DNA from: Candidatus Sulfotelmatobacter sp.
Lineage (GTDB): Bacteria > Acidobacteriota > Terriglobia > Terriglobales > Acidobacteriaceae
DNA length: 64,000 nt
Direction of reading: 5' to 3'
NCBI GenBank assembly: GCA_030041475.1
Contig: JASHNU010000018.1
Span: forward strand, 1-64,000
Below the pieces are notes generated by a model. It had not been told where the DNA came from. It ran no database searches and saw only the letters and a list, made by a program, of their open reading frames with translations. Shown here one piece after another: positions 30,066-56,332 of the stretch; the first letter of the stretch is position 1; the number at the start of each line of letters is the position of its first letter. Made by a program: the position numbers and the translations under genes.

Positions 30066-31841
30066 CTAAGTGTTCCGGCTCTCACGCGATGCCACAAGAG
30101 ATTCCGCTTCCCTTCCCGGCTTCACCACGACAAAAGGTCCGATGGCCAGCACATCCATGCGAGTGCGCTGGAAGCAATCGATGGCCTCCTCGGGAGTGCA
30201 GACGATCGGCTCGTTCTCATTGAAACTCGTATTGAGAAGGACCGGAATTCCGGTCTTACGGTGAAAGGCCGAGATCAGGTCGTAGTAAAGCGGATTTTCG
30301 TCGCGCGCGACCGTTTGCAGGCGTCCAGTGTTGTCGACGTGGTTCACCGCGCACAAGCTCTCCCGCTTCTCCGGTCGGATCTTGTAGACATGCAGCATGA
30401 ACGGCGACGGGTGGTCGTGCTCGAAGTATTCATGCTGATGCTCCGCGAGGATGGACGGCGCGAAGGGACGGAACCACTCGCGGTGTTTGATGCGGGCGTT
30501 GAGAACGTCTTTCATGTCGGGCAAGCCAGGATGCGCGACGATGGAGCGATTGCCCAAGGCGCGGGGGCCCCACTCCATGCGGCCTTGAAACCATCCGACT
30601 ACATTGCCGGCGGCAATCTGGTCCGCCACGGTGCCCAACAACTCGCTTCTCTCAAGTTTGCGAAAAAGCAATCCTGCGCTACCCAGTGCGGTTCGAATAC
30701 GAGAGTCTGAAAATTCCGGTCCCAGATATGAATTCTTCAACTCGTGCCTGCGGGGCTGTTTGAGCACCGAGTGATGGGTGTGCAGAGCGGCTCCAATGGC
30801 CAGGCCTTCATCGCCGGCAGCCGGCTGAATGTAGTTTCGGCGAAAAGGAGTGCGATCGAAAATCTTGCCATTGGCTACGCTGTTGAGCGCGCATCCTCCC
30901 GCCAGCGCGAGATCCTCAAGAGGGACGCGCCGGTAAAGTTGATTCAGCAGTGGGAAGACAATCTCCTCGAAACGGTGCTGCAGTGCGAAGGCCAAATCCA
31001 TGTCGCGCTGCGTAATCTCCGAATACGGGCGGCGTGGCTCACCGAAAAGTTCTTGCATGCGATCCGAGAAATGGCGCGCCAGCCGCACCGTTCCATCGGG
31101 CAAAACCTGCATGCCCTGGTTGCTGCCGAGAGGTTTGAAGTAGCTCAGATTCAGCTGAAAACCGCCGTCTCGCGGCGCCACGATTTTTCCAATCTGATCG
31201 CAGTAGGTGCTCTTGCCATACGGAGCGAGGCCCATGACTTTGCCTTCGTCTCCGTATTTTGTGTAGCCGATGAACTCGCAAATCATCGTGTACAGGCTGC
31301 CGAGTGAGTGCGGCAGGTAAACGCGGTCGAGCACCTCAATGTCGTTGCCCTCGCAGCGCGCCATCATGGTGGAAACGAAGTCGCCCGAGCCGTCGTAACT
31401 GAAACCGGCACATTTCTCCCACGGCGAACAGTAGTACGCACTGGCGATGTGAGCGATGTGGTGCTCGAGATGATGCTCCTGGAAACGGAGGAGACTAGCG
31501 TCGACCTGGAGCGCGTTGGCCAGCAGCGAACGTACATCGCGCATCGCTTCCTTGCGCTGGCGCAAGCGGATGAAGTTCAGGATCTTCGCCGGATTAGCGA
31601 GCGCATATCGAACTTTCTTTGCGAGGTTTGCGTCGCTATCCTGCCCGACCGCGACGTGGTCGACGTCTGAAATCTTCGCGCCCACCGCGTCCAGGCACGC
31701 TTTGACTGCCAGCGCAGGGAACCCGCCGAAGTGTTTATGCCGGTTCAGGCGCTCCTCGGCCACGGCGAATTGGATCTCGCCGTCGAGCACGATCGCCGCT
31801 GAGGCATCGGCATGAAACATGTTGAGGCCCAAAATAAGCAT
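30066..31841 (-). CDS. NodU/CmcH-type carbamoyltransferase
   Basis: A 591-residue enzyme. The N-terminal Kae1/TsaD-like domain has HADASAAIVLDG and the metal-binding His cluster in EHHLEHHIAHIASAYY; the C-terminal domain has WFQGRMEWGPRALGNRSI and NTSFNENEPIVCTPEEAI, both signatures of the family. It makes a carbamoyl adenylate from carbamoyl phosphate and transfers it to a hydroxyl group, here probably on a sugar of the surface polysaccharide. It is the last gene of the minus-strand block from wecE down; 41 bases separate it from the fusion dehydrogenase. Confidence 0.94.
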   Translation of the reverse strand: MLILGLNMFHADASAAIVLDGEIQFAVAEERLNRHKHFGGFPALAVKACLDAVGAKISDVDHVAVGQDSDANLAKKVRYALANPAKILNFIRLRQRKEAMRDVRSLLANALQVDASLLRFQEHHLEHHIAHIASAYYCSPWEKCAGFSYDGSGDFVSTMMARCEGNDIEVLDRVYLPHSLGSLYTMICEFIGYTKYGDEGKVMGLAPYGKSTYCDQIGKIVAPRDGGFQLNLSYFKPLGSNQGMQVLPDGTVRLARHFSDRMQELFGEPRRPYSEITQRDMDLAFALQHRFEEIVFPLLNQLYRRVPLEDLALAGGCALNSVANGKIFDRTPFRRNYIQPAAGDEGLAIGAALHTHHSVLKQPRRHELKNSYLGPEFSDSRIRTALGSAGLLFRKLERSELLGTVADQIAAGNVVGWFQGRMEWGPRALGNRSIVAHPGLPDMKDVLNARIKHREWFRPFAPSILAEHQHEYFEHDHPSPFMLHVYKIRPEKRESLCAVNHVDNTGRLQTVARDENPLYYDLISAFHRKTGIPVLLNTSFNENEPIVCTPEEAIDCFQRTRMDVLAIGPFVVVKPGREAESLVASRESRNT

Positions 31842-31882: not shown

Positions 31883-34141
31883 TCATTCCTTCAGATTGGC
31901 GTTCAGGCTTGACGTTCGCAACGCCGCATTGAGAAATGCCGGCGTGTCAACGGCGAGTCGCGCTCCCGTGGCGATGGACTCCGCGGCGCGCAGCGTCGAC
32001 AGCGTGGAACCTACGATGTCTTCGAAAAGTATCGGCAGTTCTCTCTTCTGCTGCAGGCATTGCACAAACGCCGACCACTCGGCGCGATGGCCTTTGTCTT
32101 GATGCCATCGGGCATGTGCGGTTCTCTTTCGCCCTTCGCGCATAAGTTCGAGTCGACGAAAATCGTCCATAATCGCTACGCTGCCCCCGCCGAACACTTC
32201 AATGCGCTCTTTGGAAAATGACCGATCGCCATTGGCCAGATAGCTGATCGTCCCCTGGGATCCATTGGTAAATCCGAGCGATAGCACGACGTTGTCGCCA
32301 CTGTATCGTCCCGCATCGCCAAGTGCGCGGCCTTCGAGTTCCATGACCGGCGAGCCGGCGAGGAACTTCAGCAGATCCACAAAATGGCAGACCTCACCGA
32401 GAACGCGGCCGCCTCCCTGCTCACGGTCGTTGACCCAATGATCGGGGGAGAGATAACCGGCGTTGATTCGATAATGCAACGCGAGAGGCTCGGAAATTGA
32501 CGCAAGGAATAGCTTCATCTGTTCGATCATGGGTGCGAAGCGGCGGTTGAAACCTACCATCAGTACCGGCCTTCGAGCAGCAGCGATCCCGAGATACGCG
32601 CGAACGATTTGCGACAATTCCGCCTCGTTCAGGCACAACGGCTTTTCGCAGAAGACGTGCTTCCCGGCTGCAAGAGCGGCGATCACTTGCCTGGCGTGGA
32701 GGTGATGGCGGGTGACGACGACCACCGTACTGATATCAGGGTCGTGCAGAAGCCGAGATTCGTCGGTGGTGCAATAACGGAAGCCAAACTTTTTCGCCGC
32801 GCTTTGCGCGCGTGCGCCGGTAGCCGCGCAGATACCGACCAAGGTCGCGTCCGAAGAGGCCGTCACTGCTGGAATGAGTGTGCCCGTGGCAAAAACTCCA
32901 GCGCCAAGTACGCCAATGGAAACGCCGGCTGCGCGAGCCGACTCACGCGGCCCAGATGTGGGTGGAACCGGCGCGAGCGTGGGGGAATCATCGCCTGCTT
33001 CGGAATACTGAATGACAATCCCCAGAAACGATTCGCCGGCTTCGCCAGTAACGAGCTTGTAAGCGGCTTTGGCATCAATGATGGGAAAGTGATGTGTAAC
33101 CAGCGCGCCGACGTTTATCTTCTTCTCGGCGAGCAACCGCAGAAATTCGCCCATGTTGCGAGTCTCGGTCCAGCGCACGTAGCCGATCGGATAATCCCGG
33201 CCCTTCTGTTCATAAGCTACGTCATAACGGCCCGGACCGTAGGATCGCGAAACACGAAAATCGAGCTCCTTTTCGTAGTATGCCTTGCGCTCGATATCCA
33301 GGCCCACGGTACCGACCGCGACGATGATGGCCCGGTCACGCGCGATCGCTCCGGCCAGGTTGACGGGATCGCTGCTCGAAGTTTCTGCTGTGATAATGAC
33401 AGAATCCACGCCAAGACCATACGAGCCGTCCCTGCAAATGTCGCGAAACGCCGCAGCCGAGGTGGCAATCGCGTCGGCCCCCATCTCACGCGCAAAGCCG
33501 GCGCGAGAAGCATCCAGGTCGATGCCAAAAACGCGGCAGCCAGCTGCTTTCAGCAGTTGCACCGTGAGCTGGCCGAGCAGACCCAAACCGATGACGGCGA
33601 CCAAATCTCCGAGCTTGGCCTCGGCAGTTCGGATGCCATGAAGAGCGACGGCGCCGAGCGTTGCGAAGGCTGCCTGGTCGAAGGGAAGTTCTTCGCCGAT
33701 CAGGGGATCGGTTGAAGGAATGCGCGCGACGAGCAAGCGCGGGATAGAGGCGACCTCCGCATGGACGGCAAATCCCGCGCCCGCGCAGGCAACGCGGTCA
33801 CCGGGTCGAAGATCGGTGATGCCGTCAGCCACCGCAATGACTGTTCCGGCGCTGCTGTAGCCCGGGGTCTGCGGCTGATCGAGCCGGCTGCGCACTGCAC
33901 GAATCGCGGACAGGATTCCGTCGCGCTGCACTTTGCCTAGAACTTCGCGGACAAGGTCAGGCCTGGACTGGGCTTTTTGCAGGATGTTTTTTCGCGCGAA
34001 TTCTGCCGCGGCGCGCTCTGTGCCGGCAGACACGACGGAAGCGGCAATCCGCACCAGCACGCAACCGGGCAGCAACTGCGGCGCGGGAACGTCTTCCACC
34101 GTAATTTCGCCGGTGCGGGCGTGTTGGAGAATCTGTTTCAT
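31883..34141 (-). CDS. Two-domain dehydrogenase: alcohol dehydrogenase-like + Gfo/Idh/MocA
   Basis: A 752-residue fusion. Residues 1-380 are a medium-chain alcohol-dehydrogenase-like unit (GYSSAGTVIAVADG, then the nucleotide-binding VIGLGLLGQL). From about 405 comes a Gfo/Idh/MocA unit with its own Rossmann motif (GVLGAGVFATGTLIPAV), the family EKPLCL near 490 and the C-terminal sheet domain. The classical zinc-ligand pattern is not obvious in the first unit. Such fusions occur in surface-polysaccharide loci and are thought to oxidise or epimerise nucleotide sugars. It overlaps the asparagine-synthetase stop as ATGA. Confidence 0.92.
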   Translation of the reverse strand: MKQILQHARTGEITVEDVPAPQLLPGCVLVRIAASVVSAGTERAAAEFARKNILQKAQSRPDLVREVLGKVQRDGILSAIRAVRSRLDQPQTPGYSSAGTVIAVADGITDLRPGDRVACAGAGFAVHAEVASIPRLLVARIPSTDPLIGEELPFDQAAFATLGAVALHGIRTAEAKLGDLVAVIGLGLLGQLTVQLLKAAGCRVFGIDLDASRAGFAREMGADAIATSAAAFRDICRDGSYGLGVDSVIITAETSSSDPVNLAGAIARDRAIIVAVGTVGLDIERKAYYEKELDFRVSRSYGPGRYDVAYEQKGRDYPIGYVRWTETRNMGEFLRLLAEKKINVGALVTHHFPIIDAKAAYKLVTGEAGESFLGIVIQYSEAGDDSPTLAPVPPTSGPRESARAAGVSIGVLGAGVFATGTLIPAVTASSDATLVGICAATGARAQSAAKKFGFRYCTTDESRLLHDPDISTVVVVTRHHLHARQVIAALAAGKHVFCEKPLCLNEAELSQIVRAYLGIAAARRPVLMVGFNRRFAPMIEQMKLFLASISEPLALHYRINAGYLSPDHWVNDREQGGGRVLGEVCHFVDLLKFLAGSPVMELEGRALGDAGRYSGDNVVLSLGFTNGSQGTISYLANGDRSFSKERIEVFGGGSVAIMDDFRRLELMREGRKRTAHARWHQDKGHRAEWSAFVQCLQQKRELPILFEDIVGSTLSTLRAAESIATGARLAVDTPAFLNAALRTSSLNANLKE

Positions 34142-36144
34142 GCCGTGGCAACCTGGTTGGGAGCCAGCAGCTCCGATTCGTACGTGGCCGCGCCGCCATC
34201 AAGAAAGTTTTGCATCCACAATTCCAAGGTCAGCATTTGCCAAAGTTGCATCGACCAATCTTGGCGGCCGCGACGGTGCTCGTTCACGAGAGCCTGCACT
34301 GCTTCCGGACGAAACAGTCCCCGTCTACGCACTCTTTCACCGGAGAGCAGATCATCGATCATTTCTCTGAGATCGTTGGCCAACCAATAGTCTACGGGAG
34401 CGGCAAAGCCGGCTTTTGGTTGTTGCAACACTTCACGCGGCAACATGCCGCGCATGGCGCGGCGGAAAATGTATTTCGTCGTGGGCGCGAAGAATCCCTT
34501 CAGTTTCAGATTCGGCGGAACGTTCCAGGCCACGAACTCGGCTAGTTCACGGTCGAGAAATGGCACTCGGACTTCAACCGATGAAGCCATGCTCATCTTG
34601 TCGTTGTAGGTGAGGTTAAGGCTAGTCATGAAAATCTTCGTATCCAGGTAAAGCATCTGGTGCAGGAAATCCGCGTTGTTTACGCGCTCGAACGCGGCTC
34701 GGTGCGGACCCGCCGGATCCCACTGCGACGTCTCGGCCGCGAGATCGGAAGTATAAAGGCCCAGCTTCTGGTTGCCGTCGAAATAGGTACAGTTGGTGAT
34801 GAATCGGTCGACTGGAGCCAATGACGCACTGCGCGCCATTTTTTTGAAAAGGCGCAGCCTCCCTTTCACGGGAGTGCCCCGTAAGCCGGGCAGTGCCGCG
34901 AGAGCCGCCTCAGCAAGGCCGCGTGCCATGGGTGGAGTCTTGGCATATGCCTGCGCCCAGTAGTGGGCGAGATGCTTGCGGTATCCGGCAAACAGTTCGT
35001 CGCCGCCAACGCCGGAGAGAAGAACGGTGGCCTGTTTCCGGGCTTCGCGGCAGACCAGATAAGCCGTGATGATGGCGGGGTCGGCCGTAGGCTCGTCCAT
35101 ATGCCACACAAGTCGCGGGAGCAGGCCAGTGACATCAGGTTCGACCACGATCCGCTGGTTCTCGCATCCCAAATGGCGGGCGAGCCGGGTAGCGACCTCG
35201 GGATCGTCGAGCGTGGTTTCGCCGACGCGGTACTTCTGCGGAAAAGTAACCGTGTAGGTGTGCACCGGCTCGTTTGTCGCTTTGCTCATCGTCCCCTTGC
35301 TCATCATGGCGACGATGCTCGACGAATCAAGACCAGCGCTGAGAAAGGCGCCGATCGGAACGTCGCTCACCATCTGCGCTTCGACCGAGCGGCGAAAGCG
35401 CTCGCGGATTTCCTCTTCCAGATCGGCTTCGGAGCGTGCGTAAGTCTGGTTCGCGGGTGGAAATGTCAGGTCCCAGTATTGCCTGAGCTTGAAATCGCCA
35501 TCGCGCAAAGTCGCGTAATGACCCGCGGGAAGCTTCAGGATTCGCCGGAACATCGTCTTGGGATCGGGGACCCAAAGGAATGTCAGATATTGATGAAGTG
35601 ATTCGGGGTCGAGTTCCGCTTCGATCTGCGCGACTTGCAGGAGCGCCTTGACCTCAGAGGCAAACGCGAACCGGGTGCCATCGTGAAAGTAATAAAACGG
35701 CTTGATGCCAAAATGATCGCGCGCCATAAAAAGCGTGGGCGTCGCCAGACGCAGATCGCAGATGGCGAAAGCAAACATGCCGTTGAGCCGCTTCACGCAA
35801 TCCGTACCTTCTTGTTCGTACAGGTGGATGATGACTTCCGTGTCAGTGTGGGAAGCGAAGCTGTGCCCCTCGCTCTCGAGTTCGCGGCGAAGTTCGGCAA
35901 AGTTGTAGATTTCGCCGTTGTACGTAATCCAGATAGTGCGGTCCTCGTTGCACATGGGCATGTGCCCCTCGCTGGACAGATCGAGGATAGCAAGCCGCCG
36001 GCTGCCTAGACCAACGTACGAACCGTCAGGGAATCTGCGCTCCCAGAGTCCGGAATCGTCGGGGCCGCGATGCGCCTGGACGTGGGTCATCCGCGCCAGC
36101 GTTTCATGATCCCCGCAGTTCACCAACCCACTGATTCCGCACAT
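34138..36144 (-). CDS. asnB: Class-B asparagine synthetase homologue 1 (probable sugar amidotransferase)
   Basis: A 668-residue protein. Cys2 of MCGISG is the glutaminase nucleophile; the class-II glutaminase residues are present (RGPDDSG, YNGEIYN, DTEVI). The synthase half has the ATP-pyrophosphatase loop at 269-274 as SAGLDS, where the usual form is SGGxDS. Asparagine synthetase homologues in O-antigen loci (WbpS type) amidate uronic acids rather than aspartate, and that is the likely role here (inference). It has a four-base overlap with the fusion dehydrogenase and a six-base gap from the glycosyltransferase upstream. Confidence 0.9.
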   Translation of the reverse strand: MCGISGLVNCGDHETLARMTHVQAHRGPDDSGLWERRFPDGSYVGLGSRRLAILDLSSEGHMPMCNEDRTIWITYNGEIYNFAELRRELESEGHSFASHTDTEVIIHLYEQEGTDCVKRLNGMFAFAICDLRLATPTLFMARDHFGIKPFYYFHDGTRFAFASEVKALLQVAQIEAELDPESLHQYLTFLWVPDPKTMFRRILKLPAGHYATLRDGDFKLRQYWDLTFPPANQTYARSEADLEEEIRERFRRSVEAQMVSDVPIGAFLSAGLDSSSIVAMMSKGTMSKATNEPVHTYTVTFPQKYRVGETTLDDPEVATRLARHLGCENQRIVVEPDVTGLLPRLVWHMDEPTADPAIITAYLVCREARKQATVLLSGVGGDELFAGYRKHLAHYWAQAYAKTPPMARGLAEAALAALPGLRGTPVKGRLRLFKKMARSASLAPVDRFITNCTYFDGNQKLGLYTSDLAAETSQWDPAGPHRAAFERVNNADFLHQMLYLDTKIFMTSLNLTYNDKMSMASSVEVRVPFLDRELAEFVAWNVPPNLKLKGFFAPTTKYIFRRAMRGMLPREVLQQPKAGFAAPVDYWLANDLREMIDDLLSGERVRRRGLFRPEAVQALVNEHRRGRQDWSMQLWQMLTLELWMQNFLDGGAATYESELLAPNQVATA

Positions 36145-37126: not shown

Positions 37127-39043
37127 TTACAAATGCAGTTCACACCAGCGCTGCAGCACGTACAGCGACCACGGCCGCGACCACGACATTGCTCCCCGCA
37201 GAAACTGTTGCCAAACTCGTTGCGCCTGGCTCCCGTCGAGCAATCCGCCGAGGGGGCCGGCGTTGATCCTTTGAGCGCTCAGCACCGGGTCGATTTCGGA
37301 CGGAAGTTCCTGGCGCATCCAATGCTCGAAGGGCAAAGTAAAGCCGCGCTTCGGACGATGAACAATTTCTTCCGGAAGTGATTTTTCGAGCGCCCCAACG
37401 AGCAACTTCTTCGGCGTGTGGTTGAGCTTCCAGGCTCCAGGCAGCGCCAGCACCGTTCTAGCCAACTGATGATCGATCAGGGGAACACGGACCTCCAGGC
37501 CATGCTCCATGCTCATGAAATCAGCGTCGCGCAGCAGTGTATTGAGCATATAACAGCGTGACTCAAGATAGGAAACCTGATTGACGGGGTCGAGCGAAAA
37601 TGCCCGCTGCAAGCTGCTTCGGAGCGATTCTGCAGCGGCATCGTTGGCACCGGCGCTCGCCTTGGGGAACAAAACATCGCGCTGACTCGGTGTGAAGAGC
37701 ATACGAGTCAGAAAGTATGGATGAAGAATCCGGCCGTTGCCGCTCACCAGACTGCGCAGCTTGCGATTTTGATCATTGTCAGGCGATAGAGCCGCAAACG
37801 CCGCGGCCAGTGAGCCGCGGGCGAACGGGGGAAGGTGACTCCAGAAGTTTGCGAAGCGCTGCATGCGCGGGACCGAGCGGAAACTGGCGTATCCGGCGAA
37901 AATCTCATCGCCCCCAAGCCCGGAAAGCGTGACCTTCACACCGGCGCGGCGCGCCTCGCGCGATACGAAAAATGTGTTTACGCCGTCCATCGTCGGCAGG
38001 TCCATGGCGCGCAGGGCGTCGGGGATGGCGGCCAGAACATCTGCCTGGGAGACGCTGATCTCGTGATGATCGGTTCGGAACTTCGCGGCCACGGCACGCG
38101 AGTGTTGCGCCTCAGAAAAATCAGCTTCTTTGAAAACAATGGAGAATGTGCTCGGCGTGACCCCGCCACGGCTGAGAATGCTCACGAGGGCGCTCGAATC
38201 GATGCCACCGGAAAGGAACACCCCCACTGGTACGTCACTGACCAATTGCATGCGGACCGCTTCTTCGAGAATTGGCTTCAGTCGCTGCTCGGCGCGCATC
38301 CGATCGCTAGCGGTTCTTTGCATTTCCACTTGGCGCGAGCCTGCTTCGTCGCCGACCAGGTCCCAATATCGCGACGTGTAAAGCGTGCCGTCTATCCAAC
38401 TCAGGCTGTAGCCGGCCGGAAGCGCATGCACACCTTCGACCAATGTGAGCGGATCGTATGCAGAGCCGAAAGTCAGATAGTTGGTGAGCCCGGCATGGTC
38501 GATGCTCTTCGGCAAAAGCCCCGTCCCGAGCAGCGTTCGCACTTCCGAGGCGAAAAGAAAATGTGTGCCGGCCTGAGCGTAGTACAGCGGCTTAATGCCC
38601 ATCGGATCGCGGGCCAGGAACAGGCGGTGGCCTCGCGCGTCCCAAATGGCAAATGCGAACATTCCCCGAAACTTCCCGAGGCACGCCTCGCCCCAGCGAG
38701 CGTACGCCTTGAGCACGACTTCGGTGTCAGAGTGGCTGACGAAAGTTGTTCCTGCACTTTCCAGTTCTTTGCGGACATCACGAAAGTTGTAGATCTCGCC
38801 GTTGTAGACGATCCAGTTGCCGGTGTCGGGATCGTGCATGGGTTGGTGGGCGAGGGGCGAGAGGTCGAGAATCGCAAGGCGACGGTTGCCCAGCCCAACC
38901 TGAACTTCGCCAGCGGTTGAATCCTGCAGAACGACCGTGCCCGAGTCGTCAGGGCCGCGATGCGCCAGCGACTCAGTCGCACGCTCCACGAGACCCGGAT
39001 CCAACCGGGAATTACGCGTCAGAATGCCAACGATTCCACACAT
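37127..39043 (-). CDS. asnB: Class-B asparagine synthetase homologue 2
   Basis: A 638-residue protein with intact Cys2 (MCGIVG), glutaminase signatures (HRGPDDSG, YNGEIYNF) and a canonical SGGIDS pyrophosphatase loop at 278-283. All catalytic elements are therefore conserved, unlike homologue 1. Amide transfer to a sugar carboxylate is the likely role in this polysaccharide setting, though real asparagine synthesis is not excluded. It lies between wecE and the GT2 on the same strand. Confidence 0.9.
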   Translation of the reverse strand: MCGIVGILTRNSRLDPGLVERATESLAHRGPDDSGTVVLQDSTAGEVQVGLGNRRLAILDLSPLAHQPMHDPDTGNWIVYNGEIYNFRDVRKELESAGTTFVSHSDTEVVLKAYARWGEACLGKFRGMFAFAIWDARGHRLFLARDPMGIKPLYYAQAGTHFLFASEVRTLLGTGLLPKSIDHAGLTNYLTFGSAYDPLTLVEGVHALPAGYSLSWIDGTLYTSRYWDLVGDEAGSRQVEMQRTASDRMRAEQRLKPILEEAVRMQLVSDVPVGVFLSGGIDSSALVSILSRGGVTPSTFSIVFKEADFSEAQHSRAVAAKFRTDHHEISVSQADVLAAIPDALRAMDLPTMDGVNTFFVSREARRAGVKVTLSGLGGDEIFAGYASFRSVPRMQRFANFWSHLPPFARGSLAAAFAALSPDNDQNRKLRSLVSGNGRILHPYFLTRMLFTPSQRDVLFPKASAGANDAAAESLRSSLQRAFSLDPVNQVSYLESRCYMLNTLLRDADFMSMEHGLEVRVPLIDHQLARTVLALPGAWKLNHTPKKLLVGALEKSLPEEIVHRPKRGFTLPFEHWMRQELPSEIDPVLSAQRINAGPLGGLLDGSQAQRVWQQFLRGAMSWSRPWSLYVLQRWCELHL

Positions 39044-39096: not shown

Positions 39097-40257
39097 CTAA
39101 CCGGCTCGAATGCTCAACGAGCGTATACGGAATCTGAGCAGTGTGCTCGTCACCTGGTTCTGCTCGTCACTGGTTAAGTCACTGTAGAAAGGCAAGCGCA
39201 GCAACCGCTCGCTGATGTCTTCGGTAACCGGGCAACTCGAGGCGCGGGCTGAGAACTTGCGCCCGGCTTCCGAAAGATGAAGGGGCGTGTAATGAAACAC
39301 GCTCAAAATGCTCTCGGACTTGAGATGCGAGATCAGTGCGTCGCGGTGCTCCAGCGAGGGCAGGAGCAGGTAGAACATGTGATACGCCTGTTCGCAATCG
39401 GCAGGAACCACCGGCAGTCTCACGTCGTTGCTATCGGCCCAATCGGCTAGGGATTCGTGATACTGGTTCCAGATGCGCCTGCGCTTTTCCTGAATCTTCT
39501 CTTTGGCCTCAAACTGCGCCAGCAGAAATGCCGACAGCAGATCGGAAGGGAGATAGCTTGAGCCGAGATCGACCCAGGTGTATTTGTCCACCTCCCCGCG
39601 AAAAAAGCGGCTGCGGTTGGTGCCTTTTTCGCGAATCACAAGCGCACGTTCGATCAAGGCCGCATCATTGATGATCAGCGCGCCGCCTTCGCCGCAGGTG
39701 AAATTCTTGGTCTCATGGAAGCTCTGCGTGGCAAGACAACCGATCGTTCCCGTGTACACGCCCTTGTAGCGGGAGAATAGAGCGTGAGCATTGTCCTCGA
39801 CGACGCGAACTCCGTGGCGGGCCGCGACGGCAAGAATCGAATCCATCTCGCAGGGAACACCTGCATAGTGAACGACCACGATAGCCTTGGTGCGCGATGT
39901 AATCAGGCGCCCCAGACAGCTCTCGTCGAGATTCAACGTGTCAGGCCGGATGTCTGCATATACCAGCCGCGCTCCACGCAAAGCGAACGCGTTCGCGGTC
40001 GAGACGAAAGTGAACGATGGCACGATCACCTCATCGTCAGGGCCGCAGTCGAGCAGAAGCGCCGCCATTTCGAGCGCGTGGGTACACGAAGTCGTCAACA
40101 AGGCTCGCGGGACGCCCAATTCTTTCTGCAGGAATTCATGACAACGGCGCGTAAACGGACCATCTCCGGAGGCATGCCCATTGGCAATTGCTTCCGCAAT
40201 GTACTTGTACTCGTTGCCTGCGAGGCACGGCCGGTTGAATGGGATTCGATAGCTCAT
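39097..40257 (-). CDS. wecE: dTDP-4-amino-4,6-dideoxygalactose transaminase (WecE/RffA type)
   Basis: A 386-residue PLP enzyme of the DegT/DnrJ family, subgroup WecE: the start IPFNRPCLAGNEYKYIAEAI, LTTSCTHALEMAALLL, VPSFTFVSTANAFALRG and the PLP Lys in SFHETKNFTCGEGGAL match. It converts dTDP-4-keto-6-deoxyglucose to dTDP-Fuc4N using glutamate. It is divergent from the WecD-like acyltransferase 148 bases away, which would act on its product. Confidence 0.93.
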   Translation of the reverse strand: MSYRIPFNRPCLAGNEYKYIAEAIANGHASGDGPFTRRCHEFLQKELGVPRALLTTSCTHALEMAALLLDCGPDDEVIVPSFTFVSTANAFALRGARLVYADIRPDTLNLDESCLGRLITSRTKAIVVVHYAGVPCEMDSILAVAARHGVRVVEDNAHALFSRYKGVYTGTIGCLATQSFHETKNFTCGEGGALIINDAALIERALVIREKGTNRSRFFRGEVDKYTWVDLGSSYLPSDLLSAFLLAQFEAKEKIQEKRRRIWNQYHESLADWADSNDVRLPVVPADCEQAYHMFYLLLPSLEHRDALISHLKSESILSVFHYTPLHLSEAGRKFSARASSCPVTEDISERLLRLPFYSDLTSDEQNQVTSTLLRFRIRSLSIRAG

Positions 40258-40340
40258 CAGCTAAAAGACGTGTGGAGAGTATAGTACGAGTGGCCGGTCT
40301 CGAAAGCAGTTCAGCACCAGCTTTTCTGCACGGACCCGTC

Positions 40341-40349
40341 TGTTACAAT
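40341..40349 (+). promoter_or_regulatory. Extended -10 promoter (TGTTACAAT) of the acyltransferase cassette
   Basis: TG-T-TACAAT in the 148-base divergent gap before the WecD-like gene, 56 bases ahead of its ATG. The -35 region is weak (TTTTCT). It would drive the four-gene cassette 40406-43332. Confidence 0.45.
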
Positions 40350-40405
40350 TTCCACTTCAGCGATTCGGTCAGTCGCCGGCTTCGCAATCGCAAACGGTTG
40401 TTGCC

Positions 40406-41236
40406 ATGCCATTAGCGCGGACGGGATATCAGTTATGTTTTGATGAGATCCTCCCCGGGAAGCCAGCCCTTGGCTCGGCCTCGATAGTGCCCTGGGATAC
40501 CGAGATCTTCGGTTTTCCAGTGGCGGTTTACCGGGTGGGAGCCGAGCGCCTCGATGCCGCTGCTCAGAAAAAGTTCGTGGAACGATTTTGCCTGTGGGCC
40601 AAACGAAACCACATTTCTCTCTGTGCCTGTGCGATACCGGTGAACGAGTCTCATTCTTCGTGGAAGCTCTATCTGAGCGAGGCGGGCTTCCACGTTGTTG
40701 ATCTCAGCTTGCAAGGGACGCTCAATGTTTTGCAGGACGCGCGCCTCCCAGAAGCCCGCTCAGAGTTGCGCCCGGCCCGGTTGGATGACCGCAACGCGAT
40801 CGAGGCCATCGCTGAACAATCTTTCCGCAATGGCCGTTACCACGCCGACCCGTTGTTCCCGCGCGAACTTGCTGACAAGAGGTACGGCCACTGGGTCAGG
40901 AACGCGCTGGCGGAGGAAGACGCGATCGATCGCGTGTATGTGATGGGCGAACCGGGTGACGTACAAGGTTTCTTTCACGTCACTATAGAAGAAGGCGTTT
41001 CCGACCTGCGGCTGGCTGCCACTGCACCGGCCCTTCGAGGAACGCTGCTGGGATTCGATCTCTATGTTTCGGTCCTGCACTTGCTAAAAGGATTGGGTGT
41101 CCGGCGCGTGGTGAGCAGCATTTCCGCCGGAAATACCGCGGTCATGAATGTTCTCGCCGAGCTGGGGTTTTCATTTTCCGCTCCTGAAATGATTTTTCAC
41201 TGGCATGGTGAGGCCTTGGGCGGGAAGGACCGATGA
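40406..41236 (+). CDS. WecD/RffC-like GNAT acyltransferase
   Basis: A 276-residue protein. The opening WDTEIFGFPVAVYRV and the middle segment SFRNGRYHADPLF...KRYGHWVRNAL are hallmarks of WecD-like TDP-fucosamine acyltransferases, and the end carries a GNAT core (LGFDLYVSVLHLLKGLG...NTAVMNVLAELGFSF). It should acylate the 4-amino group of the WecE product. The two downstream genes FkbH and ACP suggest the donor may be an acyl-ACP instead of acetyl-CoA (inference). It overlaps the next small gene as ATGA. Confidence 0.85.
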   Translation: MPLARTGYQLCFDEILPGKPALGSASIVPWDTEIFGFPVAVYRVGAERLDAAAQKKFVERFCLWAKRNHISLCACAIPVNESHSSWKLYLSEAGFHVVDLSLQGTLNVLQDARLPEARSELRPARLDDRNAIEAIAEQSFRNGRYHADPLFPRELADKRYGHWVRNALAEEDAIDRVYVMGEPGDVQGFFHVTIEEGVSDLRLAATAPALRGTLLGFDLYVSVLHLLKGLGVRRVVSSISAGNTAVMNVLAELGFSFSAPEMIFHWHGEALGGKDR

Positions 41237-41361
41237 GACTGCACCACATAGTTGTCGAAAACCCAAGCCTGAATCGCCTCTGCGACGAAGTTGGACGCTG
41301 CGTTGCTGGCTTGTTCTTCCGCAAAATGTATCTCATGGAACTTGTGGAGGCCCAACGATAA
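41233..41361 (+). CDS. 42-residue mini VOC-like protein, coupled at both ends
   Basis: Too short to be picked up easily, but its ATG overlaps the acyltransferase stop (ATGA) and its TAA overlaps the FkbH ATG (TAATG), so it fills the gap exactly. The N-terminus MRLHHIVVEN is like the first strand of VOC/glyoxalase enzymes with its metal His, and the end MYLMELVEAQR is like the last strand with its metal Glu (E36). The middle of a normal VOC protein (about 80-100 residues) is missing. It is either an internally deleted VOC gene kept for translational coupling, or a genuine small protein. Confidence 0.5.
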   Translation: MRLHHIVVENPSLNRLCDEVGRCVAGLFFRKMYLMELVEAQR

Positions 41362-43109
41362 TGATTGGCCAGCCAAGTTCGCCGATCTCGATGGCTTTGC
41401 TGTCGAGTTCTGGAACCCAGTTGCTGGCGGATGCTATCGATAGCGAACTGCGTGCCTGGGGGTGGGACGTCCGAATCTGGCAGTCAGGCTTCAACCAGTA
41501 TCGCCAAGACATCGCCAATCCCGGATCGCCAATCTATCTCGATCCACCGCAAGTTTTGGTCCTCCACCTGGATGCTGAGGATCTTTTTGCCGATTTGCTG
41601 CGGGATCCCTTTAGTCACGAAGGGCCAGCTCGTCTGCAGCGGGCAAAAGAAGCCGCCATCGAGGTGGAAGGCTACTTAGCCGTGCTCCGGGACCGCTTGC
41701 CAGAAACGCTGGTCATCTTGAACACGGTCTACCTGCCCCCGGTTCACAGCCTCACAGGCTTGGAGTATCACTCTTGTTGGGGTATGGCTGACCTGACGGC
41801 CAACTACAACGGCGAACTGGCACGCATCGCCCGGCGGTCTTCCAATGTTCTGGTGAACGACGTTGCTTCCCTCGCCTTCCAAATCGGCTATGGAGACTGG
41901 TACGACCCGCGCCTTTGGCACCTCGCTCGATGCCGACTTAGCGGAAAGGCGATTAAGGCTTTGGCGGCACAAACGGGAAGTCTTCTCCGTGGCTGGAAAG
42001 GGCAAACACGCAAGTGCCTCGTTCTCGACCTCGATAACACGTTGTGGGGCGGTGTCATCGGCGAGGATGGTATCGCGGGCATCGCACTCGGCGAAGACGG
42101 CCCAGGTATGGCCTTCATGGAATTTCAACAGGAGTTGCTGAATCTTTCCCGCAAAGGCGCACTCCTCGCCATTTGCAGTAAGAACAACGAGGAGGACGCG
42201 CTCGAGGTCCTGCGACAGCACCCCTCCATGCGGCTGAGGGAGGATGCTTTTGCCGCAACAAGAATCAACTGGCGCGACAAAGCCACCAACTTGCGGGAAC
42301 TGGCGGAAGAACTCAATATCGGGTTGGACACTTTCGTCTTCATCGATGACAACGCCGCCGAGCGCGCCCTGGTGAAAGCCACGCTACCTGAGGTCTGTGT
42401 TCCCGATTGGCCGCAGGAACCTTCCTGTTTCAAAGCCGCCCTACTCGAGTTGTCCATCCAGTATTTTCCTAGGGTCGCCGTAACCGGCGAGGATAGAGCC
42501 AGGTCTGCCCTATACCGGGCCGATGGCGAACGGCGGAGAGAAGCCGTCTCGACCGGGAGCCTCGAGGACTATTACCGTTCCCTCCAAATGCGCGCCGAAA
42601 TCGGCTACGGCGATCCCGTATCGACTCCACGGATCGCCCAGCTGACCCAGAAGACCAACCAGTTCAATCTCACCAGCCGCCGCTACACAGAAGCTGAAAT
42701 CCGAATGCTCACGGAAGCTACCGATGCCATGGTGATGTGGCTGCGTCTCAGGGATCGTTTTTCGGATGACGGCATCGTTGCCGCAATGATCCTGCGCCAG
42801 TGCGACGGCCGGTCTTGGATGATAGACACATTTGTGATGAGTTGCCGCATCATTGGCCGCACGGTTGAAAGCGCCTTTCTCGGTTATGTCTGTCACGTGA
42901 TGAAGCAACGCGGCGTCCGGGAGCTGGTCGGTGAATATATCCCCACCCGGAAAAACAATCTAACAGTCAATCTCTATCGGGATCTTGGTTTCGAAGTGAT
43001 CGACAGCCCACAGGGGGCGACGCGCTGGCGGCTTCCGCTGAACGAAAGGTTAGTACCGATACCCGAGTGGATTGGAATTGCGGTTGCGGAAGAGACGGCT
43101 CATGCTTGA
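41361..43109 (+). CDS. FkbH-like HAD-IIIC family enzyme
   Basis: A 582-residue protein. The N-terminal part (about 1-215) resembles the SGNH-like region of FkbH proteins; the HAD nucleophile motif is VLDLDNTLWGGVIGEDG (about 220-240), with CSKNNEEDA and FIDDNAAERALV as later motifs; the C-terminal part is GNAT-like (TRKNNLTVNLYRDLGFEVI). FkbH enzymes take 1,3-bisphosphoglycerate, dephosphorylate it and load a glyceryl group on an acyl carrier protein; the next gene is an ACP. The start at 41361 has GGAGG ten bases upstream. Its stop lies inside the ACP start region. Confidence 0.92.
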   Translation: MIGQPSSPISMALLSSSGTQLLADAIDSELRAWGWDVRIWQSGFNQYRQDIANPGSPIYLDPPQVLVLHLDAEDLFADLLRDPFSHEGPARLQRAKEAAIEVEGYLAVLRDRLPETLVILNTVYLPPVHSLTGLEYHSCWGMADLTANYNGELARIARRSSNVLVNDVASLAFQIGYGDWYDPRLWHLARCRLSGKAIKALAAQTGSLLRGWKGQTRKCLVLDLDNTLWGGVIGEDGIAGIALGEDGPGMAFMEFQQELLNLSRKGALLAICSKNNEEDALEVLRQHPSMRLREDAFAATRINWRDKATNLRELAEELNIGLDTFVFIDDNAAERALVKATLPEVCVPDWPQEPSCFKAALLELSIQYFPRVAVTGEDRARSALYRADGERRREAVSTGSLEDYYRSLQMRAEIGYGDPVSTPRIAQLTQKTNQFNLTSRRYTEAEIRMLTEATDAMVMWLRLRDRFSDDGIVAAMILRQCDGRSWMIDTFVMSCRIIGRTVESAFLGYVCHVMKQRGVRELVGEYIPTRKNNLTVNLYRDLGFEVIDSPQGATRWRLPLNERLVPIPEWIGIAVAEETAHA

Positions 43110-43332
43110 CGTGCGGTTGGTTCAACTGATTTCTCGAGTGTTTGGTATTCCAGAGGAGAAGGTAACGCCCGGACTGAGCCGTGAGACGGTCGAGGCTTGG
43201 GATTCACTTAGCCACTTCAAGCTGATTTTGCGGATCGAGGAAGCTTTTCGCCTGCGATTTCCGACGGCTGAGATACCGAACCTGGTATCTGTGGAACGTA
43301 TTCAGGAAGCGTTGAGCCGACTTGCAAAGTAG
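43102..43332 (+). CDS. Acyl carrier protein
   Basis: A 76-residue ACP. The phosphopantetheine Ser is Ser35 in EAWDSLSHFKLI, the usual DSL signature, with acidic helices around it. It overlaps FkbH by eight bases, and the start MLDVRLVQLIS is the family-like one. It is probably loaded by FkbH and used by the WecD-like acyltransferase (inference). Its 3' end overlaps the end of the convergent methyltransferase gene by 116 bases. Confidence 0.9.
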   Translation: MLDVRLVQLISRVFGIPEEKVTPGLSRETVEAWDSLSHFKLILRIEEAFRLRFPTAEIPNLVSVERIQEALSRLAK

Positions 43333-44272
43333 TGCGCTCGGAAGCCGCCGACGGCCGCCGGATGACGACTTCCCATCCACCCACCAAGCGGTAACTCGAT
43401 CCCAGAACATACCAGGGTGCCTTGAGGGCATATGCCGCAATGGCGCGAATGGGGTTGTGCAAGAACGATGTCTCCACCACGGAGGGCCGAGATGAGATCA
43501 ACTGGAGAGTTCCGGCTTCGGCTTCCACCAACCGCGGCACTTGCTCCCAGAACTCCTGGCCGAGATCGTGTACGTGGGCCGGGAAGGTGAAATCATAGGG
43601 CAGCCGGAGAAACTGAAAGATGCGCAGGATCGACGCCGCGCTCGGAGTGCGCGCATAAAAAACGCCTCCTGGCTTCACGCGCGACAAGAGGTCGATCAGC
43701 GCCGGGCGGAGAAAGGGAATATGTTCCAAAATCGCGCTTGCAAGAACCAGGTCAAACTGTTTTTCCTTCACCTCGGCCAAGGTCTGGTGCGGTTCAAGGG
43801 CAAGGCCCGCCGTCGGCTCCATTCGGCTGAGATTGCTGTTGTAATCGACCAGATCGATTTGGGCATTTGACGTGCCGCTGGCCAGGAGCAGCCCGGCAAT
43901 CGCCCGGGAGAGATCGCCCCCGCCGCCGCCAAAGTCGAGAATGGAAATGGATCGTTCTCTTAAGAACGGCCCGGCATAAGCCATCACGTGCCGTGCGAAT
44001 GTCAGTGGATTATCACAAGTGACGGTGGTATCCAAATGTTTGTAGTAACCGCCATAGTATCGGCGCAGCGTCTCTTCCGTTGGCAGCCGCGAGGCGGAAT
44101 ACCCGCCGCATCTCCGGCACTTCAGCAGGTATACGTCAGGTTCGGCCTGCAAGAGCAACACTCTTTTTCGCTCATCCTCCCCGAGACAAACCGGGCAGCG
44201 AAAATCGGCAGACAGGAGATCTTCCTCCTTCACGTGAACGCCAGCATGGTACTTAGTGAGGTTTACGGCCAT
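43217..44272 (-). CDS. Class I SAM methyltransferase with N-terminal zinc-binding Cys cluster
   Basis: About 351 residues. The N-terminus has CPVC...LLKCRRCG, a four-Cys zinc site, followed by an unusual linker, then the methyltransferase core: SAM motif ILDFGGGGGDLSRAI, the acidic LVDYN, and LVLASAILEHIPF. This layout occurs in sugar C-methyltransferase-like proteins. The last 50 residues run past GGWEVVIRRP through Ser/Pro-rich sequence antisense to the ACP gene and may be a late extension after loss of an earlier stop. I took the ATG at 44272 (MAVNLTKYHAG); earlier codons look non-family. Confidence 0.85.
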   Translation of the reverse strand: MAVNLTKYHAGVHVKEEDLLSADFRCPVCLGEDERKRVLLLQAEPDVYLLKCRRCGGYSASRLPTEETLRRYYGGYYKHLDTTVTCDNPLTFARHVMAYAGPFLRERSISILDFGGGGGDLSRAIAGLLLASGTSNAQIDLVDYNSNLSRMEPTAGLALEPHQTLAEVKEKQFDLVLASAILEHIPFLRPALIDLLSRVKPGGVFYARTPSAASILRIFQFLRLPYDFTFPAHVHDLGQEFWEQVPRLVEAEAGTLQLISSRPSVVETSFLHNPIRAIAAYALKAPWYVLGSSYRLVGGWEVVIRRPSAASERTTLQVGSTLPEYVPQIPGSVSQPSEIAGEKLPRSAKSA

Positions 44273-44375
44273 AAAGTCGCGATCATAACAGAACCAAAAC
44301 TCAAACCTGCGCCGCTCCGGGCTGTGTGTTGACCATCTTCTTGCGCCCATCTCGCGTAGTGGCAACGCCAGCACG

Positions 44376-45392
44376 CTAAGAATGCGATCGCAGCTTCGAA
44401 ATGGATTCCGAATCCGCTGTTGCAGTGGTGGTATTCTCCCGGCCCGCGTCCTCACGGATCACATAGCTGGGACGGTCCATCATGCGAAAATGCATGCGCG
44501 CCAAATACTCCCCAATGATCCCCAACGCGAACAACTGTGCGCCCGAAAAGAGCGCGATGATGGATGCGAGAAATGGAAATCCTGGCACGCTCCCCCCGGC
44601 CCACAGGTATCGGCCCACGACATAGATCAGGACGCCTATGCCGAAAAGCGTAAAAACAAAGCCCACCAGGCTGGCAAACTGCAGCGGCACCGTGCTGAAG
44701 CCGGTCATCATGTTCATCGCATGCGTCATCAGGCGGCGGAAAGTATAGCCAGAGGCGCCTTGTCTCCGCGGCTGATGATCGACAGGGATGGCGGTGAAAC
44801 GGTTCGTCCCCCAGGTCAGGAGAACGTCGATCGAAACGAAAGCCCCCTCGTAATGCTGAAAGGCTTTGGCTACTTCGGCGCGAAACGCGCGGAATGCACT
44901 CACTTTCCGCGCGATCTCGGCTCCCATTATGTTTTGCAGAGCAATCTTTGTGATCCACGAGGCAAAGTCGCGGCCGATTCCGTGCTGCTCCTGCATAGGA
45001 GTGCCGTAGACGACGTCATACCCCTCCGCCAACGTGGCCAGCAGTTTGGGAATCTCCTCCGGCGGGTGTTGCAGATCGTCGTCCATGGTGACGATGACGC
45101 CGTAACAAGCTTCGCGGATGCCGCACAAGAGCGCGTTGTGCTGTCCGTAGTTGCGCATAAGGTTGAACGGACGTATCCAGGGATGTTGGACGGCGAGTTC
45201 AGTAATAACGTCCCAACTGCGATCCGGGCTGCAATCGTTGACCAGGATAAGTTCATACCTGTCGGCGATGCCGGCCAACACCGCCTCCAGGCGGCCCACT
45301 AACTCGGGCAGAATTTTTTCGCTGCGGTACACAGGAACGACAACCGACACCCGCCGCGGCGCCGGCGGAACCTCACTCGGCACCCTGCTCAT
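44376..45392 (-). CDS. Family-2 glycosyltransferase with two C-terminal membrane helices (GtrB/ArnC-like)
   Basis: A 338-residue protein. The catalytic domain has VSVVVPVYRSEKILPELV, VNDCSPDRSWDV and the metal motif VTMDDDLQHPPEEI. Then come QPRRQGASGYTFRRLM and two membrane helices (LQFASLVGFVFTLFGIGVLIY and FLASIIALFSGAQLFALGIIG), ending YLARMHFRMMDRPSYVI. That is the layout of polyprenyl-phosphate sugar transferases such as GtrB or DPM1. It probably loads a sugar onto undecaprenyl phosphate for modification outside. The ATG at 45392 has AAGGG nine bases ahead; a GTG at 45416 is an alternative. Confidence 0.92.
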   Translation of the reverse strand: MSRVPSEVPPAPRRVSVVVPVYRSEKILPELVGRLEAVLAGIADRYELILVNDCSPDRSWDVITELAVQHPWIRPFNLMRNYGQHNALLCGIREACYGVIVTMDDDLQHPPEEIPKLLATLAEGYDVVYGTPMQEQHGIGRDFASWITKIALQNIMGAEIARKVSAFRAFRAEVAKAFQHYEGAFVSIDVLLTWGTNRFTAIPVDHQPRRQGASGYTFRRLMTHAMNMMTGFSTVPLQFASLVGFVFTLFGIGVLIYVVGRYLWAGGSVPGFPFLASIIALFSGAQLFALGIIGEYLARMHFRMMDRPSYVIREDAGRENTTTATADSESISKLRSHS

Positions 45393-45527
45393 CAGGATTG
45401 GCCCTTCAGGACTCACTTGTGCGATTCTCCCGTGTCCCGCGTCAGTCGCGCAATCTCAAATGTGCATGATACAGAGGATTTGTCGTGTTGATCCAGTGTG
45501 TTTGTACACTCGCCCGTCCTGTCACAC

Positions 45528-46358
45528 TCATTCCGTCTTACGGGCGACGACCACAAGCGATGTTCCAATAGGACATCGCCGTCCGCGTGCGACCCAGTCG
45601 GCCTCTGCAGTCAGCAGCGTGGTCAGGATCGGATTCACCACGGGCGCGATGCGGAATTCGTTGCTGGTCCGCACTCGCACTGCTAGAGGATCTGACCCTT
45701 GTTTCCGCAGCTTGCGGTAGATCCAAACCATGGGAAAGGCGCACGCCATGAACTGGCTGAGGAAGTCGATCTGGAACCCGGCTTCCAATAGTTTTTGGCG
45801 AATGCTCTGGGGGGAATAACGGCGGCAGTGCTTGGCTGCTTCGTCGAAATGACTCCACAGAGATTGGTGAGCGGGAACCGTGAGCAGCAGCTTTCCGCCC
45901 GCAGCCAGGCAGCGCCACACCGCAGCCAGCGTTTCGCGATCGTCAGGAATGTGCTCCAGTACGTCGAACATACCGACGAGACCGAATGGCTTGCCAAACG
46001 GCAAGTTTCGAATGTCGGCCTGAACCAGAGCGGCACCGGTTCGCCCGCGAGCATGTCTGAGGCCCTCCGACCAAAGTTCCAAACCGATCACCAGAGATTG
46101 CGGGCAGGCTTTCTCCAGCACACGAAGCACGTTGCCGGTGCCGCAGCCGACCTCCAACACGCGATTGCACGCCAGGAGGGATGGCGAAATCCTGCGGACC
46201 AGCGAGAAGATCAGATGATTACGGGCCCGAAACCAGAAGTGCTCATCTTCGATGCGGGCCAACAGATCGAAGAACTCTGGATCGTAGCCCCCCGCCCCTT
46301 CATGGAATGATTCTCCCGCAGGCTTCTCCGCTTCCGCTGATTCTGGCCTTGAAATCAT
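45528..46358 (-). CDS. Class I SAM-dependent methyltransferase
   Basis: A 276-residue protein. Before the core lies the segment FFDLLARIEDEHFWFRARN common in methyltransferases of sugar loci. The core has VLEVGCGTGNVLRVLE, an acidic strand end (IGLELW), VGMFDVLEHIPDD and GGKLLLTVPAH. A hydrophobic stretch (FMACAFPMVWIYR) lies near the C-terminus. The substrate is unknown. It is divergent from the large membrane protein with only 42 bases between their starts. Confidence 0.9.
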   Translation of the reverse strand: MISRPESAEAEKPAGESFHEGAGGYDPEFFDLLARIEDEHFWFRARNHLIFSLVRRISPSLLACNRVLEVGCGTGNVLRVLEKACPQSLVIGLELWSEGLRHARGRTGAALVQADIRNLPFGKPFGLVGMFDVLEHIPDDRETLAAVWRCLAAGGKLLLTVPAHQSLWSHFDEAAKHCRRYSPQSIRQKLLEAGFQIDFLSQFMACAFPMVWIYRKLRKQGSDPLAVRVRTSNEFRIAPVVNPILTTLLTAEADWVARGRRCPIGTSLVVVARKTE

Positions 46359-53234: not shown

Positions 53235-54463
53235 GCGGCGGACTCCCCGTAGATTCGCGCGAGAGTCTCCGCCTGCTGGGCTAGTGTGAGTCTTTCGAGT
53301 ACGGTGTCTCGCGCTGCTCTTCCCAGACTGCGGCGGCGGGACTCGTCGCGCAGCAGCATGGCGAGCGCCAGGGCCAGTTCTCTTTCGTTCTCAGGGCCAA
53401 CAAGAAATCCGTTGGTCCCGTGCTGAATGATCTCGGCAATTCCTTGCCCGCGACAACCGATCACCGGTTTACCCGTCGCCATAGCTTCGAGATATACGCA
53501 TCCCAGGCCTTCATACCGACTGGGCAGCGCGAACAGCATGCAGCGGCGCATCGCTGCGGCAACCTCGTGCCGCGGCTGCCTTCCGAGGAATCGCACTCGA
53601 TCTGAAATGTGCAGCTCGCGGGCCAGGGCCTGCAAACGCGAGAGTTCCGGCCCCTCGCCGATGATCTCCAGCGCAAGGGCTGGAAAGTCGCCTGCCAGTG
53701 AGGCAACGGCGCGGATCAACACAGCGTGTCCTTTGATCGGGATCAGGTTGCCGACACTCAGGATGCTCTGCGAGACGTTCGCCGGTCCGCCGGAGTCGGC
53801 CTCACTTCCCGGTGAGAATAATTCCGGATCGACCGCGTTAAACACCACCGAAGTGCGGGCTGCCCGGCCAATACCTTCGAGAACCAGTTCGCGCACGTGC
53901 TCGCTGATGCAGATCACACGCCGCGAACTTCGATAAACACGCTGCGAAATGCGGCGGCACCATTGACCCGCTCGGCCGCCGACTTGTTCCGTCGAAAAGG
54001 CATCGAGCCCATGCACGGACACGACATACGGAATCCCGAGTTCTGTGCTCAGCAGCATGGCCGCATGGCCACAGGGCAGCGCTGCGTGTGCATGAATCAA
54101 ATCGATCCGTTGCCAGCGCTGCAGTTTGCGCACGCGTCCCACAATCCGCGCAAATAAGAACGCGCCAGCCGTCGGAAGACCGAAGCCTCCGGGAAGAGAA
54201 AAATAGCGCAGCCACTCCGACGGCACTGCCGACGTCCGCGGGCAGTGCTTCTCACGATAAAAGGGCTGCACCGCGAATACGGTATTCGTCACTCCGATCG
54301 TAGCCAGGACTTCAAGCGGCTCTGAGACAAAGCAGCCCCCGGCTTCGTCGCGCTCGCTGGGATAAAACGGCGTCAGGGTGAGAAGGTGGATCGGCTTGCG
54401 GTGCGCCCCAGTACGGCCCACGCTTTGGGCGAGCACGGGCGGCAGCTGTGGATTCGAGTTCAC
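53231..54463 (-). CDS. GT4-family glycosyltransferase (c)
   Basis: A 410-residue GT-B enzyme: PIHLLTLTPFYPSERDEAGGCFVSE near the start, IHAHAALPCGHAA, VHGLDAF, then the donor domain ILSVGNLIPIKGHAVLIRAVA and RCMLFALPSRYEGLGCVYLEAMATGKPVIG. I place the start at GTG 54463, where it overlaps the asparagine-synthetase stop as GTGA, in line with the operon. The frame is open 83 codons further but that stretch is antisense to the neighbour's 3' end and not protein-like. Confidence 0.9.
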   Translation of the reverse strand: MNSNPQLPPVLAQSVGRTGAHRKPIHLLTLTPFYPSERDEAGGCFVSEPLEVLATIGVTNTVFAVQPFYREKHCPRTSAVPSEWLRYFSLPGGFGLPTAGAFLFARIVGRVRKLQRWQRIDLIHAHAALPCGHAAMLLSTELGIPYVVSVHGLDAFSTEQVGGRAGQWCRRISQRVYRSSRRVICISEHVRELVLEGIGRAARTSVVFNAVDPELFSPGSEADSGGPANVSQSILSVGNLIPIKGHAVLIRAVASLAGDFPALALEIIGEGPELSRLQALARELHISDRVRFLGRQPRHEVAAAMRRCMLFALPSRYEGLGCVYLEAMATGKPVIGCRGQGIAEIIQHGTNGFLVGPENERELALALAMLLRDESRRRSLGRAARDTVLERLTLAQQAETLARIYGESAA

Positions 54464-56331: not shown

Positions 56332-56332
56332 T

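Follow-up and report, generated by a model that had tools for sequence, protein, structure and literature searches.

A cassette linking a WecD-like acyltransferase to FkbH and an acyl carrier protein beside wecE: a possible acyl-ACP-fed decoration of an amino sugar in an acidobacterium

In a 64,000-nt stretch of the soil-type bacterium Candidatus Sulfotelmatobacter sp. (contig JASHNU010000018.1; hereafter the window), the gene for a WecD-like GNAT acyltransferase is coupled to genes for an FkbH-like enzyme and an acyl carrier protein (ACP), and the group stands beside wecE. Our analysis suggests that these genes form a cassette that decorates an amino sugar with an acyl group fed from an ACP, a general logic that we favor on comparative grounds, the exact acyl group being the weakest step of the proposal. 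In the route that we envisage, RmlA, RmlB and WecE would, by family assignment, produce the dTDP-activated amino sugar dTDP-Fuc4N; FkbH, as its family predicts, would transfer a glyceryl group from 1,3-bisphosphoglycerate to the phosphopantetheine arm on Ser35 of the ACP; the GNAT would move this glyceryl group off the ACP onto the sugar's 4-amino group, in place of the usual acetyl, yielding dTDP-4-N-glyceryl-Fuc4N; and an ArnC-like family 2 glycosyltransferase (GT2) would hand the sugar on to undecaprenyl phosphate, to be built into the Wzx/Wzy polymer whose genes lie around it. Wzx- and Wzy-type genes do lie within the window. We infer which acyl group is used, that the ACP delivers it and which polymer receives it, and the steps differ in strength: that the GNAT acts on the WecE product is very probable, that its donor is an ACP thioester is likely, and, given such a donor, an unmodified glyceryl group is to be expected with only slightly less assurance.

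An earlier sequence-only reading of this DNA had placed wecE and the WecD-like gene back to back, with the latter joined by overlaps to a 42-residue open reading frame (ORF), fkbH and an ACP gene, and the coordinates bear this out:

39097-40257, minus strand: wecE, dTDP-4-amino-4,6-dideoxygalactose transaminase, maker of the 4-amino sugar nucleotide
40406-41236, plus strand: WecD-like GNAT, proposed ACP-dependent N-acyltransferase (PF13302, E 3.9e-5)
41233-41361, plus strand: 42-codon ORF, probable internally deleted relic of a VOC (methylmalonyl-CoA-epimerase-like) gene
41361-43109, plus strand: FkbH-like HAD-IIIC protein, predicted glyceryl-ACP synthetase (TIGR01686)
43102-43332, plus strand: acyl carrier protein, phosphopantetheine site Ser35

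The divergent wecE and GNAT genes are 148 bp apart. The GNAT gene meets the 42-codon ORF in an ATGA overlap, that ORF meets fkbH in TAATG, and fkbH, whose start was chosen by homology within a longer ORF beginning at 41205, overlaps the ACP gene by 8 bases, ATGCTTGA. Promoter and terminator scans found none.

The family assignments of three components are consistent with the proposed route. WecE scores above both curated cut-offs (NF008687, 561.8 against 375 bits; TIGR02379, 522.6 against 434.85 bits), and rmlA and rmlB, also above cut-off, are found at another locus of the same genome. FkbH exceeds its cut-off (TIGR01686, 289.3 against 146.65 bits) and retains every one of the family-invariant residues D223, D225, S273, K307, D329, D330 and C495, so that the domain, the HAD residues and the SCR cysteine are all present; from its invariance, C495 would be the cysteine that carries the acyl group. 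The ACP itself falls below the Pfam gathering score (PF00550, 17.7 against 20.8 bits), and its 63% identical orthologue at L092, a locus in a metagenome-assembled genome (MAG) of the Acidobacteriaceae, exceeds it at 25.7 bits. The window protein is predicted to form a four-helix fold (pLDDT 95.5) whose top PDB matches are complexes of Escherichia coli AcpP (TM ~0.8), and its Asp34-Ser35 pair is the same in all 23 FkbH-linked ACPs compared (that of the window and 22 others). Because of the predicted fold, the structural match to AcpP and the invariant Asp-Ser, we take it to be a genuine ACP despite its weak sequence score. In searches of viral contigs and plasmids, no FkbH match was found in the former and no GNAT match in the latter, and every plasmid match to FkbH was below 60% identity.

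The cassette recurs in other genomes. A profile scan for FkbH across 84,980 genomes gave, among the matches listed, at least one close relative, at L092. L092 contains GT2, GNAT, FkbH and ACP genes, the last three products being 54%, 56% and 63% identical to those of the window, and its fkbH/ACP junction has the identical 8-base overlap; its GNAT and fkbH genes are separated by a 36-nt gap in which the 42-codon ORF is absent. A profile built from the GNATs of the window and L092 and searched in relatives recovered four further members (L265, L266, L267 and L268). L265 encodes the GNAT (54%), FkbH (61%) and ACP in the same order, with the first two genes overlapping directly by ATGA and again no 42-codon ORF. 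The search for this gene order elsewhere that the sequence-only reading had called for has therefore found it in at least three genomes (the window, L092 and L265), so it is not unique to one strain, and from this recurrence the arrangement is judged not to be due to chance. L268 has a different composition: GNAT, ACP-like gene, short-chain dehydrogenase/reductase (SDR) resembling 3-oxoacyl-ACP reductases, AMP-ligase, then an ArnC-like GT2, a methyltransferase and WecE. Its ACP-like gene is small, with a GGDS motif and a weak match to DltC/AsbD (E 0.004), and this locus suggests that the loading enzyme was exchanged and the carrier retained. The remaining members, L266 (GT2, GNAT, WecE) and L267 (WecE, GNAT), come from genomes that lack FkbH. 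The GNAT gene is adjacent to wecE in the window, L266 and L267, shares a locus with it in L268 and a genome with it in L092 and L265. Each of the six genomes that carry this GNAT subfamily thus encodes WecE, compared with 30 of the 297 genomes in the phylum sample, a co-occurrence that is suggestive, the carrier genomes being related and the comparison no independent test.

The GNAT itself is where the sequence-only reading has to be revised. It had described the acyltransferase as WecD-like, and the curated WecD models place it far under their cut-offs (28.6 against 219 and 24.2 against 195.1 bits for NF008212 and TIGR02382). Among PDB structures it matches E. coli WecD best (E 1.2e-4), and the six GNATs form a single sister clade, separate from the WecDs of the phylum (support 100/100); the window genome has no further close GNAT of this type. 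In aligned WecD-type GNATs we scored position four of the CoA pyrophosphate loop (consensus R/Q-x-x-G-x-G/A), which is G or S in the WecE-linked WecDs and L, T, M or F in the ACP-linked GNATs. The window loop reads RGTLLG and so lacks the glycine of the acetyl-CoA-type P-loop of WecD, and that of L266, which has no ACP neighbor, is an intact QGRGVG. The glycine is lost in four of four ACP-linked GNATs and one of 16 others (Fisher p 0.001), in a comparison of related sequences and a contrast drawn after the data had been seen. From what is known of GNAT structure, an ACP-bound thioester may have no need of this loop, while the WDx[DE]xFGF and RYHxDPxFP motifs common to WecDs, both retained here, probably lie on the acceptor side.

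These data bear directly on an alternative that we consider unlikely, namely that the GNAT is an ordinary WecD using acetyl-CoA and that FkbH and the ACP serve another acceptor, for example an O-acyl group or a nonulosonate sugar encoded on the same contig. GNATs stand beside WecE without FkbH or ACP in L266 and L267, as this would predict, and another acceptor may be at hand through the Pse-like genes at 64–84 kb of the contig, which include a PseG-GNAT fusion; moreover, the L097 operon (below) and a Campylobacter locus connect FkbH with pseudaminic acid. Against an ordinary WecD stand the tight coupling of GNAT, FkbH and ACP, kept together in at least three genomes, the renewed pairing of GNAT with an ACP in L268, and the missing P-loop glycine in the ACP-linked GNATs.

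Several observations weigh against an ACP-fed acylation of the WecE product. The carrier genomes are few and mutually related, and in L092 and L265 WecE is on a different contig from the cassette. L266, a member of this clade, combines an intact loop with the absence of FkbH, and the WecE-adjacent GNAT of L267 has a degenerate loop, RELKLG, in a genome that has no FkbH; because L267 lost its loop without FkbH, a lost loop is no specific mark of a GNAT that uses an ACP. At the position of the proposed catalytic Tyr of WecD the window GNAT has Leu (L092 and L265 have Tyr), and a GNAT structure predicted from two sequences was too poor to rely on (pLDDT 44). In L097 the P-loop of PseH is intact, and the coupling there may differ. 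On balance, the idea of a three-carbon acyl group passing from an ACP to the WecE product emerges strengthened because the cassette is conserved, the loader is exchanged in L268, WecE is universal among the carriers, the P-loop glycine is lost and L097 offers a parallel; what falls away is the WecD membership of the GNAT and the 42-residue component.

That component, which the sequence-only reading had called a “mini-VOC,” is probably the internally deleted relic of a VOC gene. Its C-terminal 21 residues match the VOC profile in register and its N terminus has a likeness to LHHI-VV; the match has P ~2e-4 by model and was equaled in 10 of 20,000 shuffles, with another short ORF of the window scoring nearly as well. 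At 42 residues against ~130 for a complete VOC domain, and with no Pfam match, it does not qualify as a VOC protein. A VOC protein (methylmalonyl-CoA-epimerase-like) neighbors FkbH in 20 of 80 related loci, and in L097 a full-length VOC, following PseH and preceding FkbH, stands where the window has the 42-codon ORF. The ORF includes the ribosome site of fkbH (GGAGG). We rejected it as a functional gene, since it is missing from both nearest cassettes, L092 and L265.

On the other side of the cassette lie three genes that we relate to a locus of separate standing:

43217-44278, minus strand: methyltransferase (MT43), convergent with the ACP gene; a longer ORF reaches 44455
44376-45416, minus strand: ArnC-like GT2, polyprenyl-phosphate sugar transferase (NF007986, E 1.2e-55, below the equivalog cut-off)
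45528-46358, minus strand: second methyltransferase of the WecE/GT2 core, with homologues in L179 and L217

The GT2, absent from the sequence-only reading although it is a conserved partner of WecE and the GNAT, belongs to the ArnC superfamily and is not ArnC proper (188.8 against 529 bits); it is 61% identical to the GT2 beside the L092 GNAT. Such a GT2 adjoins WecE in L214 and L215, lies one gene apart from it in L217, and is also present in L266 and L268. L217, with GT2, a canonical WecD, WecE and a methyltransferase, looks like the window locus with a plain WecD replacing the cassette, and L179, in the same genome as L092, has WecE, GT2 and both methyltransferase types with no FkbH; from these two contexts a WecE–GT2–methyltransferase core exists both with and without the cassette. 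We propose that the cassette was inserted into such a standing locus and that a VOC gene, often found with FkbH and ACP, was lost, leaving the 42-codon scar. The MT43 ORF overlaps the ACP gene tail to tail, 116 bases antisense (43217-43332). Its last ~40 residues, which are antisense to the ACP gene, have no counterpart in the L179 homologue, which ends about where the overlap starts in the window, as would be expected from an insertion. Base composition gave no sign of recent foreign origin, the GC content at third codon positions of the GNAT and FkbH genes being similar to that of their neighbors, and MT43 was discarded as a marker of the cassette, having no near relatives among the phylum genomes sampled.

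The methyltransferases also raise the question of whether the acyl group is altered on the ACP, by O-methylation from a neighboring methyltransferase, by oxidation or by use of a lactyl-type acid, the route being otherwise the same. We think this less likely still than an ordinary WecD. Two methyltransferases do adjoin the cassette, and Campylobacter pseudaminic acid bears di-O-methyl-glyceric acid, with an fkbH-domain gene in the flagellin glycosylation locus (PMC3068675, PMC7099621). Yet methyltransferases belong to the WecE–GT2 core even where there is no FkbH (L179, L217), and the L092 and L265 cassettes have no adjoining tailoring gene.

Polyketide clusters are the best-known setting of FkbH, and several carrier domains are encoded elsewhere in the genome, so FkbH and the ACP could in principle belong to a polyketide or peptide pathway, their proximity to wecE being incidental. 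This explanation, to which we give very little weight, was rejected, largely because each of 80 related FkbH genes is free of ketosynthase motifs within 6 kb; the neighbors, furthermore, are glycan genes, and the pairing with the GNAT is conserved. The annotated neighbors in the window likewise include no ketosynthase or FabH-like partner.

Other features of the contig and of FkbH loci elsewhere deserve mention. Adjoining the window, at 64001-84000 of the contig (L181 5924-13481, minus strand), is a Pse-like nonulosonate gene run encoding a PseB-like dehydratase, a DegT aminotransferase, a fusion of cytidylyltransferase and class III aminotransferase, and a second fusion that joins a PseG-like glycosyltransferase-28 domain to a GNAT. 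Three separate asparagine-synthase-like amidotransferases (34138-36144, 37127-39043 and 54460-56358, minus strand) share one polysaccharide cluster, and each of them matches the model for XrtA-associated amidotransferases with a score below its cut-off. The minus strand also encodes a 752-residue fusion protein (31883-34141) that combines a zinc-type alcohol dehydrogenase with a Gfo/Idh/MocA oxidoreductase and, at the cluster edge, a carbamoyltransferase (30066-31841; PF02543/PF16861) that suggests sugar O-carbamoylation. In L093 and L094 (5400-7950), contigs of Asgard archaeal MAGs, FkbH and ACP are preceded by a gene of ~148 residues whose start, judged by eye, resembles a phosphopantetheinyl transferase. 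L151, L161 and L163, from Bacteroidales, show the conserved order VOC, GT2, FkbH, ACP, with a DegT aminotransferase upstream.

A broader model, which we hold with somewhat better than even confidence, is that a clade of amino-sugar N-acyltransferases gave up CoA for carrier-protein donors whose loading enzymes are exchangeable, FkbH providing glyceryl and an AMP-ligase with an SDR another hydroxy acid; L268, with its ACP, SDR and AMP-ligase, may presumably be nearer to the type found in Vibrio cholerae O1. If this is true, surface amino sugars would gain variety through exchange of the acid-loading enzyme, the acceptor enzyme and aminotransferase being kept. It would also tie a polyketide starter-unit system, FkbH–ACP, to surface sugar decoration, add to PglB2 a second way of making N-glyceryl amino sugars, and mark out a branch of WecD-like GNATs that uses ACP donors and could be found elsewhere by its signature, the loss of the P-loop glycine.

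Compared with WecD/RffC of enterobacterial common antigen (2FS5/2FT0), the window GNAT has in common the GNAT fold family, motifs of the WD-x-x-x-FGF and R-[YF]-x-x-D-P type, a WecE partner and the same presumed acceptor. In contrast, it scores far below the curated cut-offs, falls in a separate clade, has lost the P-loop glycine and is coupled to FkbH and an ACP, whereas WecD stands alone. FkbH-like enzymes load glyceryl onto ACPs in tetronate pathways (PMC7489565). The FkbH domain, the invariant residues and an adjacent stand-alone ACP are shared with the FkbH/OzmB-type glyceryl-ACP synthetases (Mad7/Mad8, Mad14/Mad12); the window, however, has no ketosynthase, dehydrogenases or FabH-like partner, and the proposed acceptor is an amino sugar.

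Related products are known from glycans. Neisseria PglB2 makes 4-glyceramido-2-acetamido-trideoxyhexose (GATDH), in which a 4-amino-6-deoxy sugar bears an N-glyceryl group and goes into a surface glycan linked to undecaprenyl; the sugar differs, the enzyme is a C-terminal domain of PglB2, and the portion of the source consulted mentions neither FkbH nor ACP (PMC6959607). In V. cholerae O1, dedicated genes (VC0248-VC0252) serve the tetronate-perosamine polymer, in which a 4,6-dideoxy sugar is likewise acylated by a hydroxy acid at its 4-amino group, but the acid is another one and FkbH is not mentioned (PMC3441752). The Campylobacter jejuni flagellin locus contains an fkbH-domain gene, cj1302, and pseudaminic acid there can carry di-O-methyl-glyceric acid (PMC7099621, PMC3068675). 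An FkbH-domain gene and a glycerate-derived acyl group thus meet in a glycan locus, although the sugar is a nonulosonic acid and not Fuc4N; a literature link of cj1302 to the glycerate group was not found. The open-access literature returned nothing for FkbH together with O-antigen, only a lipopeptide review for FkbH together with lipopolysaccharide, and no description of the GNAT–FkbH–ACP combination; the precedents are the product type in Neisseria and FkbH in a glycan locus of Campylobacter. Closest in layout is L097 (944-8973; DYJK01000010.1, a MAG named Melioribacter roseus), a PseC/PseG/PseH/VOC/FkbH/ACP/PseI operon in which VOC, FkbH and ACP lie between PseH and PseI, a candidate for the synthesis of glyceryl-modified Pse. 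Its 4-aminotransferase, GNAT, VOC, FkbH and ACP genes follow the order of the window, but it serves the pseudaminic pathway, its PseH scores above cut-off and its VOC is full-length; we regard it as an independent parallel to the window cassette.

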